The translations under genes were made by a program, and so were the position numbers. From Sulfurospirillum halorespirans DSM 13726 (lineage in GTDB: Bacteria; Campylobacterota; Campylobacteria; Campylobacterales; Sulfurospirillaceae), in contig NZ_CP017111.1 in assembly GCF_001723605.1 (NCBI RefSeq), positions 806,001 through 870,000 on the forward strand: a stretch of 64,000 nucleotides of DNA, in the 5' to 3' direction. The notes beneath the pieces were generated by a model that searched no databases, was not told the DNA's origin, and saw only the letters and a list, made by a program, of their open reading frames with translations. Shown here in pieces: positions 39,038-43,406 of the stretch; position 1 is the stretch's first letter; every line of letters starts with the position of its first letter.

Positions 39038-39074
39038 GGTTAACGGGGGCAAATGAAAACATAAGGAGATGGTC

Positions 39075-39587
39075 ATGAGCACCATTAACACATCGTATTC
39101 ATCCCAAGTTCTGGTCGATCAAAATACCGCCAGTAGTAGTTCAGCACTCTTAACTTCAACGAATGAAGAAGAAGAGGAGAGTACAACCAGTTCGAGCAGT
39201 CTACCTGTAGACACCGTTGAAATTTCCGATGAAGCAAAAGCGTTAGCCGCAACTAGCAGTAGCAGCTCAACGAGCACCAGCGAAGAGAGTTCAACTGAAA
39301 GTTCAACAACGAGTGAAAGTGAAAGTAGTAGCACCCAAAGCGGGGGCGCAAGTGCCACTTCTGGAACCAGTAGTGCGTCAACAAGCAGCAGTGACAGCAT
39401 TGATGCACAAATCGAAGCGTTAGAGAAAAAAATTGCTGCACTCGAAAAAGAGATCGCAGCGGCACAACAAAAATCAAGTGGTGACGAAAAGAGTACTCAA
39501 GATGTCCAGGCGAAACAAGCCATGGTCGCATCGTATCAAGCGCAAATTTCCACCCTTGAAGCGCAGGCCGCTGAAACATCTGCCTAA
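39075..39587 (+). CDS. FlxA-like serine/threonine-rich protein
   Basis: A protein of about 170 residues. The first half is a low-complexity Ser/Thr/Glu tract (about 15-115), the second half a coiled coil (DAQIEALEKKIAALEKEIA then KQAMVASYQAQISTLEAQ) typical of the FlxA-like family. The segment VDTVEISDEAKALA is typical of flagellar anti-sigma or hook-associated proteins. Probably linked to flagella, role unknown. The ATG at 39075 is preferred: AAGGAG (39063) is then six bases upstream, whereas the ATG at 39069 abuts it. Confidence 0.65.
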   Translation: MSTINTSYSSQVLVDQNTASSSSALLTSTNEEEEESTTSSSSLPVDTVEISDEAKALAATSSSSSTSTSEESSTESSTTSESESSSTQSGGASATSGTSSASTSSSDSIDAQIEALEKKIAALEKEIAAAQQKSSGDEKSTQDVQAKQAMVASYQAQISTLEAQAAETSA

Positions 39588-39609: not shown

Positions 39610-39645
39610 AAAAGCTTTACATGTAAACTTACATGTAAAGCTTTT
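39610..39645. terminator. Near-perfect 36-base inverted repeat built from two palindrome copies
   Basis: AAAAGCTTTACATGTAAA and CTTACATGTAAAGCTTTT are complementary except at the centre, giving an 17-pair stem, 23 bases after the flxA-like stop. A plausible terminator for that gene and an extreme case of palindrome pairing. The downstream sequence AAGGC lacks a T-run, though the stem itself ends in TTTT. Confidence 0.7.
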
Positions 39646-39681: not shown

Positions 39682-39687
39682 TACAAT
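39682..39687 (+). promoter_or_regulatory. -10 box of the dnaE leader
   Basis: TACAAT with CTCATTTGC upstream. If used, transcription would start near 39694 and leave a leader of about 164 bases before dnaE, containing four hairpins. Confidence 0.45.
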
Positions 39688-39726
39688 AGATTCTAATAAA
39701 CTTTTACACAATTCGATAGCATTAAA

Positions 39727-39826
39727 GCACCAAGGGTGCGTGGGCATTCCGCCAAGGAAAACCCAGTGTTAACGTAGTTTTCAGAGCTTTGCTTTGAAAG
39801 CGTGTTAAAAGTTCTAAAAGAACTTT
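39727..39826 (+). ncRNA. Structured leader or small RNA upstream of dnaE
   Basis: Four consecutive stem-loops are visible: GCACC-AAG-GGTGC (39727-39739); TGGG..TTCC-GCCAA-GGAA..CCCA with a two-base internal loop (39741-39765); GCTTT-GCTTTG-AAAGC (39786-39801); and AAAGTTC-TAAAA-GAACTTT (39808-39826). The base composition is richer in G and C than the flanks and no reading frame with a start crosses it. It matches no riboswitch or RNA class I know. It could be a regulatory leader of dnaE or a separate small RNA. Confidence 0.5.
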
Positions 39827-39857
39827 AATGAAAAAACTAAATTATTGATGAGAAACG

Positions 39858-42800
39858 ATGAGCGACACACCTTACACCCATTTACATTTACACACCGAAT
39901 ACTCCCTTTTGGATGGCGCCAATAAAATAGGCAAGCTTGCCAAAAAACTCAAATCCCAAGGCGTCACTTCGGTTGCGATAACCGATCATGGAAACATGTT
40001 TGGCGCGATTGATTTTTACAAAACGATGCGCAAAGAGGGCATTAAGCCCATCATTGGCATGGAAGCGTACATTCACAACCAAGATGACATCGGCGATAAA
40101 ACGACCAAACAGCGTTTTCACCTCTGTTTGTATGCTAAAAATGAGGTCGGCTATAAAAATTTAATGTACCTCTCTTCGATGAGTTATATCAAAGGCTTTT
40201 ACTACTATCCGCGCATTAACAAACAGATTTTAAAAGAGCATTCGGAAGGCTTGGTCTGCTCAGGGGCATGTCTGCAAGGTGAAGTCAACTGGCATCTCAA
40301 TCTCAACAACAAACGCAACGTCCAATTTGGCGCGAAAGGGTATGAACGCGCTAAAGAAATAGCCCTTGAGTACAAAGCAATTTTTGGCGAGGACTTTTAC
40401 TTAGAAGTGATGCGTCATGGCATTCCCGATCAACACTTTATCGACGATGACATTTTGCGTATCTCCCAAGAGACGGGCATCAAACTTATCGCCACCAACG
40501 ACACCCACTACTTAGAGCAAGACAATGCCGAAGCGCACGAGGCGTTTATGTGTATCGCGATGAACAAAGAGTTTGATGATCCAAACCGTCTGCGCCACTC
40601 CGTGCATGAGTTTTATGTCAAATCACCCGCACAAATGAGCGACCTGTTTGCCGACATTCCTGAAGCGATTTCCAACACGCAAGAGATTGTCGATAAGTGC
40701 AATTTAGAGATTAAACTGGGCGATCCAACCCCTCCAAAATTTAAATTTACCAAAGAGTATGCCGCTAAAGAGGGGCTTACTTTTGAAAATGACGATGACT
40801 TCTTTGCCTATAAAAGTCGCGAAGGACTCGAAAAACGTCTTTTACATGTAGAGCCTAGCAAACACGAAGAGTACAAAGCAAGGCTTGAGCGCGAGATCAA
40901 AATCATCTGCGATATGAAGTTTCCGGGTTATATGCTCATCGTTTGGGATTTTATCCGTGAAGCCAAAGAGCGTGGTGTTCCTGTAGGCCCTGGGCGAGGT
41001 TCAGCCGCGGGAAGCTTGGTTGCCTTTTCGCTTTTTATCACCGACATCGACCCGATGCCATACAATCTGCTCTTCGAGCGATTTTTGAACCCTGAACGTA
41101 TTAGTATGCCCGATATCGATATTGACTTTTGTCAAAGCAGACGGGGCGAAATCATTGACTATGTGGTCGAAAAATACGGTCGTTTCAACGTAGCGCAAGT
41201 CATCACCTTTGGTAAACTCTTAGCCAAGGGAGTCATTCGTGACGTGGCGCGCGTTTTGGCGATTCCTTACGCAGAAGCCGATGCGATGGCAAAACTGATT
41301 CCCGATGAGCTGGGCATTACACTCAACGGCATTGGCGTGGAGGGCGAAGAGGGCTACAAAGGTGGCGCGTACCAAAAAGAGCCGAAGCTTCGTGAACTCA
41401 TCGAAAGCAGTCCAAAAATGCAACGTGTTTGGAAGTTTGCGTTAGCGCTTGAAGGACTGAACCGAAACTCAGGTATGCACGCCGCGGGTGTGGTCATCAG
41501 CGATGAAGAGTTGTGGCATAAAACACCCCTTTATCAGCCCTCTGGCGAAGATCATCTCGTCACGCAGTATTCGCTCAATTACCTTGAAGATGTGGACTTA
41601 ATCAAGTTCGACTTCTTGGGTCTGAAGACCCTTACGGTGATTGATAATGCGCTTAAATTGATTAAGTTACGTTACCAAAAAGAGATTGATTTTACGACGA
41701 TTGATATGAACGATCCCAAAGTGTATGAGTTGATTCAAAGTGGCGATACGGTGGGACTGTTTCAGATCGAATCCAGTGGTATGCAATCACTCAATGAACG
41801 CCTTAAACCGACCAACTTTGAAGATCTTATTGCGGTGTTGGCATTGTACCGTCCAGGTCCGATGGAATCAGGCATGTTGGATGACTTTATCGACCGTAAA
41901 AATGGTCGTAAAGAGATCAGCTATTTCTTTGATGAGTTTACAGAACCTCTTCGTCCGATCTTGGAGCCAACCTATGGGGTTATCGTTTACCAAGAACAGG
42001 TTATGCAGATCGTTCAATCCATCGGTGGGTTTAGCCTTGGCGAAGCGGATTTGATTCGTCGTGCGATGGGTAAGAAAAAGATCGACTACATGAAACAAAA
42101 AGCCGAAGAGTTCGCGCAAGGTGCTGTCGATCAAGGCTTAGATCGTGCGCACGCCATTGAGCTGTTTGGACTGATCGAAAAGTTTGCAGGATACGGTTTT
42201 AACAAATCGCACTCCGCGGCGTACGCGATGGTTACGTTTGAGACCGCGTATCTGAAATGCTACTATCCGCAAGAGTTTATGGCGGCACTTCTCACCTCAG
42301 AGCAAGACAACACCGATAAAATCGTGAAGTACATTGATGAGGTCAAACGTCTTGGACTCAAACTTTTACCACCCTCCATTCAGCACAGTTTGATTGAGTT
42401 TAGTGCGATTACCGATGGTGATGGGCAAGAGGCGATTCTCTTTGGTATGGGAGCGATCAAAGGGGTTGGCAATGCGGCGATCAGTAAGATTTTAGAAGCC
42501 AGAGAAGGGGCACTCTTTTCCGATATGAGCGATTTTATCTCCCGCATTGACAGCTCTAAAGTCAATAAAAAAGTGTTGGAGTCGTTCATCAAATCGGGCA
42601 GTTTTGATGATTTTGGCTACTCCAGACGCGCTCTTTTAGAGGGGATTGATAGCATCATTGAAGCGAGTGCTGAGTGCAGTCGTGCGAAAAAGATGGCGGA
42701 ATACTCCTTATTTGGCGACGCCGAAGAGATGACAACCGTACATGTAAGCATCGAAAATATCCCCGAATTTGATAACAAACGTATGCTGGAACTGGAAAAA

Positions 42801-43406
42801 GAGACCATTGGTTTTTACATTTCAGGACATCCTCTTGATGCGTTTAGAGCCGAAATTGATGAGATGAGTTATACGCTTTCCAGTGAAAAAGATCAGATCG
42901 AAGATGGCAGTAAAGCGCTGTTTATCGGCAAAGTAGAAGGCATTACGGAGAAGATCAGCAAAAAAGGGAATAAATTTGGCATCATCTCGCTGATGGATTT
43001 TCACGGCTCGATGGAGCTCACGGTGTTTGAAAAGCAACTCGAAGCACTCTCACGAATGGACATTGAAAAACCGCTCTGCTTTAAAGTCGATGTGAGCAAC
43101 GATGGGCAAAACACCAAAATGCGCGTCATGAAAATCATGGAACTCAGTGATGCTAAAAAAGAGAAGATCGAAACCAAAGTCATTGAAGTGCCACTTGATC
43201 CAAAGGTACTTTTGATTGATCTGAGTGATGATTCCAGCAAGCTGGAATTTTTATACCAAATCGTACGCGAGAGTGCAGGGCGCAGACCTTTGCATCTGGT
43301 CATTACCTCCAAGTTGCAAGATGTGCTCATCGAAACAGGTTTTGGCGTGGATGATAGCATCGACGAGAAACTAGCAGGAATGGAGTTTGTGAAGGTGGTT
43401 GCTTAA
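39858..43406 (+). CDS. dnaE: DNA polymerase III alpha subunit
   Basis: The 1182-residue replicative polymerase subunit. The N-terminal PHP domain begins with THLHLHTEYSLLDGANKI. The polymerase core has GPGRGSAAGSLVAF, the catalytic MPDIDIDFCQSRRGE and YQEQVMQI, and the C-terminal part contains the helix-hairpin-helix and OB fold (KALFIGKVEGITEKISKKG). Length and order match Campylobacterota DnaE. Two weak palindrome copies (40841 LHVE, 42739 VHVS) lie in variable parts. The gene follows a structured leader and its stop overlaps the end of the converging small membrane gene. Confidence 0.97.
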   Translation: MSDTPYTHLHLHTEYSLLDGANKIGKLAKKLKSQGVTSVAITDHGNMFGAIDFYKTMRKEGIKPIIGMEAYIHNQDDIGDKTTKQRFHLCLYAKNEVGYKNLMYLSSMSYIKGFYYYPRINKQILKEHSEGLVCSGACLQGEVNWHLNLNNKRNVQFGAKGYERAKEIALEYKAIFGEDFYLEVMRHGIPDQHFIDDDILRISQETGIKLIATNDTHYLEQDNAEAHEAFMCIAMNKEFDDPNRLRHSVHEFYVKSPAQMSDLFADIPEAISNTQEIVDKCNLEIKLGDPTPPKFKFTKEYAAKEGLTFENDDDFFAYKSREGLEKRLLHVEPSKHEEYKARLEREIKIICDMKFPGYMLIVWDFIREAKERGVPVGPGRGSAAGSLVAFSLFITDIDPMPYNLLFERFLNPERISMPDIDIDFCQSRRGEIIDYVVEKYGRFNVAQVITFGKLLAKGVIRDVARVLAIPYAEADAMAKLIPDELGITLNGIGVEGEEGYKGGAYQKEPKLRELIESSPKMQRVWKFALALEGLNRNSGMHAAGVVISDEELWHKTPLYQPSGEDHLVTQYSLNYLEDVDLIKFDFLGLKTLTVIDNALKLIKLRYQKEIDFTTIDMNDPKVYELIQSGDTVGLFQIESSGMQSLNERLKPTNFEDLIAVLALYRPGPMESGMLDDFIDRKNGRKEISYFFDEFTEPLRPILEPTYGVIVYQEQVMQIVQSIGGFSLGEADLIRRAMGKKKIDYMKQKAEEFAQGAVDQGLDRAHAIELFGLIEKFAGYGFNKSHSAAYAMVTFETAYLKCYYPQEFMAALLTSEQDNTDKIVKYIDEVKRLGLKLLPPSIQHSLIEFSAITDGDGQEAILFGMGAIKGVGNAAISKILEAREGALFSDMSDFISRIDSSKVNKKVLESFIKSGSFDDFGYSRRALLEGIDSIIEASAECSRAKKMAEYSLFGDAEEMTTVHVSIENIPEFDNKRMLELEKETIGFYISGHPLDAFRAEIDEMSYTLSSEKDQIEDGSKALFIGKVEGITEKISKKGNKFGIISLMDFHGSMELTVFEKQLEALSRMDIEKPLCFKVDVSNDGQNTKMRVMKIMELSDAKKEKIETKVIEVPLDPKVLLIDLSDDSSKLEFLYQIVRESAGRRPLHLVITSKLQDVLIETGFGVDDSIDEKLAGMEFVKVVA

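Follow-up and report, generated by a model that had tools for sequence, protein, structure and literature searches.

The stretch in front of dnaE in Sulfurospirillum halorespirans DSM 13726 is one copy of a dispersed repeat with a unit of about 75-130 bp, whose copies are numerous, occupy polymorphic insertion sites, are free with respect to gene orientation and often stand in tandem. On the + strand the repeat keeps a P1 hairpin, a compact H-type pseudoknot, a two-pair mini-hairpin, a GTAG tag and a P3 hairpin. As an explanation of the whole feature we consider it probable that a mobile element of the Campylobacterales, dispersed and non-autonomous, has left a copy in the stretch. No description of this repeat was found in the available text of the literature covered, chiefly open-access and including PMC12306157, PMC8865925, PMC2267715 and PMC6006769, and it apparently represents an undescribed, large repeat family of free-living Campylobacterota. 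Coordinates given without a locus refer to the window, that is, the whole analysed stretch of 64,000 nucleotides.

Structure of the dnaE copy

The copy and the host features around it, all on the + strand, are as follows (A3 is the order-wide alignment described below):

39682-39687, +: TACAAT, very likely the -10 box of dnaE, which recurs in 18 of the 20 same-genus upstream regions
39694-39825, +: inserted element of type I, ~132 bp, between the dnaE promoter and start codon, delimited to within a few bases by the empty sites L296, L298, L302 and L304
39727-39739, +: P1 hairpin GCACC-AAG-GGTGC, with every counted pair changed on both sides in A3
39743-39753, +: predicted pseudoknot stem S1, 39743-39745 (GGC) with 39751-39753 (GCC), with an equivalent R-Y pair in A3
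39747-39759, +: P2 stem, 39747-39750 (TTCC) with 39756-39759 (GGAA), interlocked with S1; in A3 100% of cells are paired and 4 of 4 pairs changed on both sides
39766-39773, +: two-pair mini-hairpin GT[GTTA]AC, with the variant GC[GTTA]GC, from covariation of the Y-R pair
39774-39777, +: GTAG tag at the foot of P3, from the pattern scan
39777-39801, +: P3 hairpin of 11 pairs with a TTT loop, a module common to type II elements, from fold, covariation and pattern scan
39808-39826, +: P4, a 3' hairpin AAAGTTCTAAAAGAACTTT present in only part of the copies, from fold and copy comparison
39858-43406, +: dnaE, DNA polymerase III alpha subunit, the host gene behind the insertion (ORF; Pfam DNA_pol3_alpha, DNA_pol3_finger and PHP)

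The original prediction had described a leader of four stem-loops, among them the GCACC-AAG-GGTGC stem, lying behind a promoter-like TACAAT, lacking an ORF and matching no known RNA class, and this description has held up. The centroid fold of 39692-39860 contains all four hairpins, with a folding energy of -44 kcal/mol as against -28.3 +/- 3.4 for 200 dinucleotide shuffles, none of which folded as well (z -4.6). Since TACAAT is kept in the same-genus dnaE upstream regions (counted by eye), including those free of the element, it is very likely the dnaE promoter and would be a host part outside the element. No + strand ORF of at least 60 aa starts in the stretch; on the - strand a single ORF (164 aa) extends into it and shows no sign of being a gene. 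An Rfam search of the stretch returned no match at gathering thresholds, and at E <= 10 only chance matches on a palindrome upstream and none on the element core.

Size and distribution of the repeat family

A DNA search with the stretch matched 31 of 60 related genomes, including all 24 of the genus (its own counted), mostly at many places in each. Within the genome of S. halorespirans itself (G000; 3.03 Mb, one contig) BLAST recovered at least 42 matches (40 of 73 candidates scored) with ~79-94% identity; at this level recent bursts are not seen, which counts against a mobile element. The covariance model R1 identifies 46 type I copies of at least 67 bits in this genome, the next score being 46 bits, and those matches examined below the gap are mainly a second element type (type II). 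Type II elements have the layout TTCTGCC-hairpin-GGCAAGCTTYAGY, followed by a small variable hairpin and then by the same AGCGTAG-P3-CGT module as in type I, and their own model, R2, finds 25 copies of at least 56 bits. When the genome was scanned with a pattern for the shared GTAG-P3-CGT module, 56 matches were obtained as against none for a reversed control pattern; 34 of these lie within type I elements and 21 within type II elements, the remaining match being the first, cut unit in a tandem array.

By covariance model, type I is found in 93 of 298 genomes and 25 of 81 genera of the order, and type II in 71 of the 298 genomes. In a sample of the phylum 73 of 397 genomes match; among the matches listed all are of the same order or closer, and no listed genome outside the order carries the element. 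A wider pattern scan returned at least 120 stretches, and among the matches listed all bear Campylobacterota-type names except two labeled 'Proteobacteria bacterium CTSoil_042'. As three proteins of one of these stretches (L209) are 94-98% identical to those of the locus L088 of S. halorespirans, the label is probably too broad. A blastn search with the core found no match among 72,556 plasmid and 50,697 phage records, and a pattern scan of 2.9 million IMG/VR contigs found one, a tailed-phage contig with a type I copy between its portal and head-protease genes (L290:5680-5767). Genome G460, from another family (f11), has at least 11 Sulfurospirillum-like copies and the other listed members of that family (g15, g28, g37) have none, a distribution that suggests horizontal transfer.

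Polymorphic insertion sites

Only two of 20 same-genus dnaE upstream regions, those of G000 and G004, contain an intact copy. Sixteen have none, including that of G008, in which the first 180 residues of DnaE are 100% identical to those of S. halorespirans, whereas a decayed copy (33.8 bits) is seen in G020 and a questionable trace (22.7 bits, E 0.012) in G018. The empty site of G023 reads TACAATAGATTC-TTAATGAAAA, and by this comparison the inserted part spans about 39694-39825, a TAAT standing at either end (39694-39697 and 39826-39829). In the window the insertion point would lie just downstream of the dnaE -10 box, at a distance of a few bases, and because the copy sits between promoter and start codon the 5' UTR of the dnaE mRNA is expected to be longer by ~130 structured bases in S. 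halorespirans and in one relative. An effect on dnaE, if there is any, is then best seen as a potential by-product of insertion and not as an old regulatory circuit.

This bears directly on the suggestion of the original prediction that the stretch is a cis-regulator owned by dnaE. A dedicated leader (riboswitch or autoregulator) would agree with the sense placement of the element in the gap between promoter and start codon and with its strong fold, but the constant sense position before related genes expected of such leaders is not what is seen: dozens of unrelated sites carry the same element in either orientation, where it precedes or follows unrelated genes or lies antisense to them, and most relatives lack it before dnaE. 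We regard such a dedicated leader as very improbable, and the empty sites rule out one specific to dnaE. The other suggestion made at the time, an independent small RNA, may apply to the element.

The flanks of 24 copies from S. halorespirans were also looked up in G008 and G004; copies without both flanks (4 of 24 in G008 and 11 of 24 in G004, a tandem array among them) were not counted. Among the 20 sites with both flanks in G008, nine are element-free (dnaE included), two hold a type II element (91.1 and 88.8 bits with R2) and nine have an element-length gap, as judged by length. For G004 the corresponding 13 sites comprise five with no element or a remnant and eight with an element-length gap, among which the one at dnaE was read in sequence. 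Neither R1 nor R2 matched at E <= 1 in 13 empty stretches from relatives. Such clean empty sites in close relatives indicate that the element inserts; some of them could be losses. Core-only copies, which lack the outer hairpins, likewise have clean empty counterparts (L081 versus L334 and L094 versus L339). One site points to a further kind of change: at L093, where G008 has a type II element, the type I copy of S. halorespirans still shows that element's first hairpin at its 5' side, with the break at a shared AAGC. This looks like an exchange inside the element, either by recombination or by insertion with loss.

Many of the longer Sulfurospirillum copies end in the inverted repeats TAGASTTCTTGC / GCAAGAASTCTA and longer copies of G187 end in CCATTAAGTTAA / TTAACTTAATGG; these are two unrelated sequences, and several copies have no terminal inverted repeats at all. 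The targets contain TA. As a target-site duplication TA would be compatible with most clean sites, but TAAT, ATTAG or TTAAT also fit some; the candidate duplication ranges from TA to 5 bp and is not uniform.

Covariation and the pseudoknot

The original prediction had proposed a covariance check on relatives, and many compensatory changes are indeed seen. We used two alignments: A1, comprising 66 cores from S. halorespirans and relatives, nearly all of Sulfurospirillum type (L041, whose P3 has an insertion, and the false match L009:2047-2135 are omitted), and A3, which covers the order with 114 matches (107 of them distinct) from a search of 97 loci. In A1, 16 of 23 pairs have changes on both sides with pairing kept, as against a shuffle mean of 5.3, and 96.2% of cells pair as against 31-56% in slid versions. 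In A3, 95.5% of cells pair and 665 cells are double changes as against 203 after shuffling; because A3 was aligned to R1, its counts for P1, P2 and P3 lean to the structure of that model. The pairs of the pseudoknot and of the mini-hairpin are absent from R1.

When every pair of columns was scanned for mutual information, the known stems came out again, together with an RGC x GCY pair crossing P2. Its R-Y pair is near-invariant within A1, whereas in A3 it is GC in 55, AU in 51 and another combination in one, that is, paired in 106 of 107 distinct sequences. Both states occur within Sulfurimonas (GC 7, AU 8), Sulfurovum (2, 9) and Sulfuricurvum (10, 3), which indicates that the pair switched repeatedly. 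From this covariation S1 and P2 are predicted to form an H-type pseudoknot, with three pairs in S1, a one-base loop, four pairs in P2 and a two-base loop GA; under the full pseudoknotted structure 97.7% of cells in A3 are paired. The hairpin with a symmetric internal loop of the original prediction (at 39741-39765) is correct in sequence, but its internal-loop reading gives way to the pseudoknot, its outer TGGG/CCCA pairs faring worse, with the second counted pair unpaired in 28 of 107 sequences. The mini-hairpin GY[GUUA]RC also covaries (CG 64, UA 28, UG 13 and other 2, of 107). G-U cells far exceed A-C cells, with 158 versus 15 in A3 and 85 versus 15 in A1, and this shows that the constraint acts on the + strand, as RNA or single-stranded DNA, and not on a double-stranded palindrome. 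As judged from these alignments, the compensatory changes are very strong for a repeat and the predicted fold is preserved across a bacterial order.

Genomic context and a possible role for the host

Like MITEs of the ERIC, RUP and Correia kind, the element has no coding capacity and its copies are dispersed between genes. Orientation was counted with a simple ORF picker for the 112 type I copies among the matches listed that have ORFs of at least 60 aa on both sides, with orthologous copies counted separately and other pattern matches left out. These comprise 38 copies in the +E+ arrangement, 39 in -E-, 21 between convergent and 14 between divergent genes. For the 30 best type I copies of S. 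halorespirans the respective numbers are 6, 7, 10 and 7, and for 25 type II copies 11, 6, 7 and 1. Direct tandem copies 85-100 bases apart are common, as in L019, L027, L147 (five copies) and L192 (three copies). In L022 (G018:C8) a copy lies antisense between what we take to be nifH and the next nif gene.

These data bear on the alternative that the element is useful to the host as a processing, stability or pausing signal in mRNA, with selection keeping the fold. It would be in keeping with this that 77 of the 112 copies among the matches listed lie between genes of one strand, that 18 of 25 type II copies follow a gene of their own orientation (p 0.04), and that copies occupy the same site across genera before dnaK (L132 and L207) and between genes that are presumably rpmE and rsmI (L123 and L150). 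Sites kept in this manner may also reflect a useful role and count against a mobile element. However, type I shows no orientation bias (38 versus 39) although only one strand is constrained, which implies that transcription reads the wrong strand in about half of the codirectional copies, and the turnover of sites between close species is high. A host-useful signal is hence an unlikely explanation in our estimate.

Possible modes of mobilization

Under the mobile-element interpretation that we prefer, the fold would be kept because a trans-acting mover enzyme recognizes it as RNA or single-stranded DNA, so that it would serve as a recognition or replication substrate. The candidate movers are a transposase of single-stranded DNA or a reverse transcriptase that works on the element RNA. 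No transposase-like cluster emerged among the proteins flanking the copies when 1176 flanking ORFs were clustered and the groups named by eye; the clusters are housekeeping, chemotaxis and sensor-type groups. The GTAG tag makes a RAYT-type tyrosine transposase the first suspect, and the element could on this basis be a composite REP of which the GTAG-tagged P3 is the recognized part. The tag (39774-39777) stands right at the foot of the 11-pair P3 hairpin, as GTAG stands beside the 20-40 bp hairpin of GTAG REPs, and GTAG repeats have been reported in Epsilonproteobacteria and Sulfurovum, according to the available text of PMC3733652. Yet the hairpin does not behave as an independent unit: of the 56 GTAG-P3 modules, 55 belong to an element of type I or II, and the remaining one is a tandem array's cut end. 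The genome has a single Y1_Tnp, a lone Y1 transposase gene in a TIRYT-like element (L340; G000:C1:391400-395800) just before what is presumably a gyrA-like gene, and its inverted repeats are unrelated (GGGGTCAGGG... / GGGGTCAGGGCTAAAC... / GGGGTCAGGGCTAAACTTTTAAC). Y1 transposases flanked by inverted repeats in this way are TIRYT in the terms of PMC3733652. Moreover, the single-contig genomes G213 and G302 carry 18 and 21 copies and are missing from the set of 143 genomes that have a Y1_Tnp, R1 found no match in 24 stretches (75.7 kb) that lie mostly around Y1 transposases, L340 included, and cover part of the Y1 genes of the order, and the replication-strand bias is not significant (27 versus 19, p 0.30). 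The genome census, the Y1 neighborhoods and the strand bias thus gave no support for a RAYT/IS200 partner, and the composite REP is improbable.

A MITE of the classical kind, in which terminal inverted repeats serve a DDE (IS630-like) transposase for movement into TA targets and the inner fold is a passenger, might be expected from the ends TAGASTTCTTGC / GCAAGAASTCTA of many Sulfurospirillum copies and CCATTAAGTTAA / TTAACTTAATGG of those in G187, and from the TA in the targets. It fits poorly with two inverted repeats that are unrelated and missing from several copies, with the clean empty sites of core-only copies and with an inner fold that is the most constrained part of the element; the clustering of flanking ORFs revealed no autonomous element with the same ends near the copies. 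We hold this to be distinctly unlikely. It is conceivable, though rather doubtful, that the family represents an order-wide class of mobile elements propagated via folded nucleic acid without obligatory inverted repeats. The propagated form would be an RNA with a pseudoknot, which might cleave itself or be reverse-transcribed in trans; it would be a bacterial counterpart of SINEs or retrozymes, and its exchangeable modules would allow conversion of type II to type I in place.

Comparison with known systems

H-type pseudoknot riboswitches and self-cleaving ribozymes resemble the element in their small pseudoknotted fold and invariant linker bases, but the element core finds no Rfam match at E <= 10 and shows no orientation towards genes. 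As far as the available text of PMC3733652 describes them, the RAYT-associated GTAG REPs and REPINs are likewise intergenic and of high copy number, have GTAG at the hairpin foot, tolerate G-T pairs and lie between unidirectional and convergent genes. The element differs from them in its 75-130 bp unit with an invariant linker and pseudoknot, in a GTAG hairpin that is practically never alone, in direct tandem arrays in place of head-to-head pairs and in having no RAYT linkage. ERIC, CIR, Correia/NEMIS and RUP repeats, in the portions of PMC2229807 and PMC10969869 available, are also about 100-200 bp in length, intergenic, folded as transcripts and directed to TA-type targets, and their mobilizer is mostly unknown. 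In those repeats pairing of the ends gives mainly a long stem-loop, or two arms in the case of CIR (PMC2229807, PMC10969869), whereas the fold described here is order-wide, covarying and pseudoknotted, with inverted repeats optional. The pneumococcal BOX, streptococcal in the accessible part of PMC3049150, is comparable in being modular, folded and non-autonomous, with repeated central modules and possible lengthening of 5' UTRs. We saw no sequence relation between BOX and the element, in which modules are exchanged between two element types.

The repeat family would reshape leaders and operon gaps in free-living Campylobacterota, and it carries a warning that a folded leader before a core gene can be a recent insertion. 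Since the bases that a mover must read are predicted by the fold, the family also gives access to a long-standing question, raised for ERIC, BOX and REP, of how small repeats of bacteria move when they lack a transposase.

Other features upstream of dnaE

Upstream of dnaE, positions 39069-39587 encode a 172-aa serine/threonine-rich protein with a weak FlxA match. Between this FlxA-like gene and dnaE lies a near-perfect inverted repeat, AAAAGCTTTACATGTAAACTTACATGTAAAGCTTTT (39610-39645), which is retained in many same-genus dnaE upstream regions whether or not the element is present. The perfect palindrome TTTACATGTAAA occurs at 15 sites in the window (e.g. 39616-39627) as against none in 100 shuffles. 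It also adjoins many other loci and constitutes a second dispersed motif of the genome, perhaps a regulator or uptake site.
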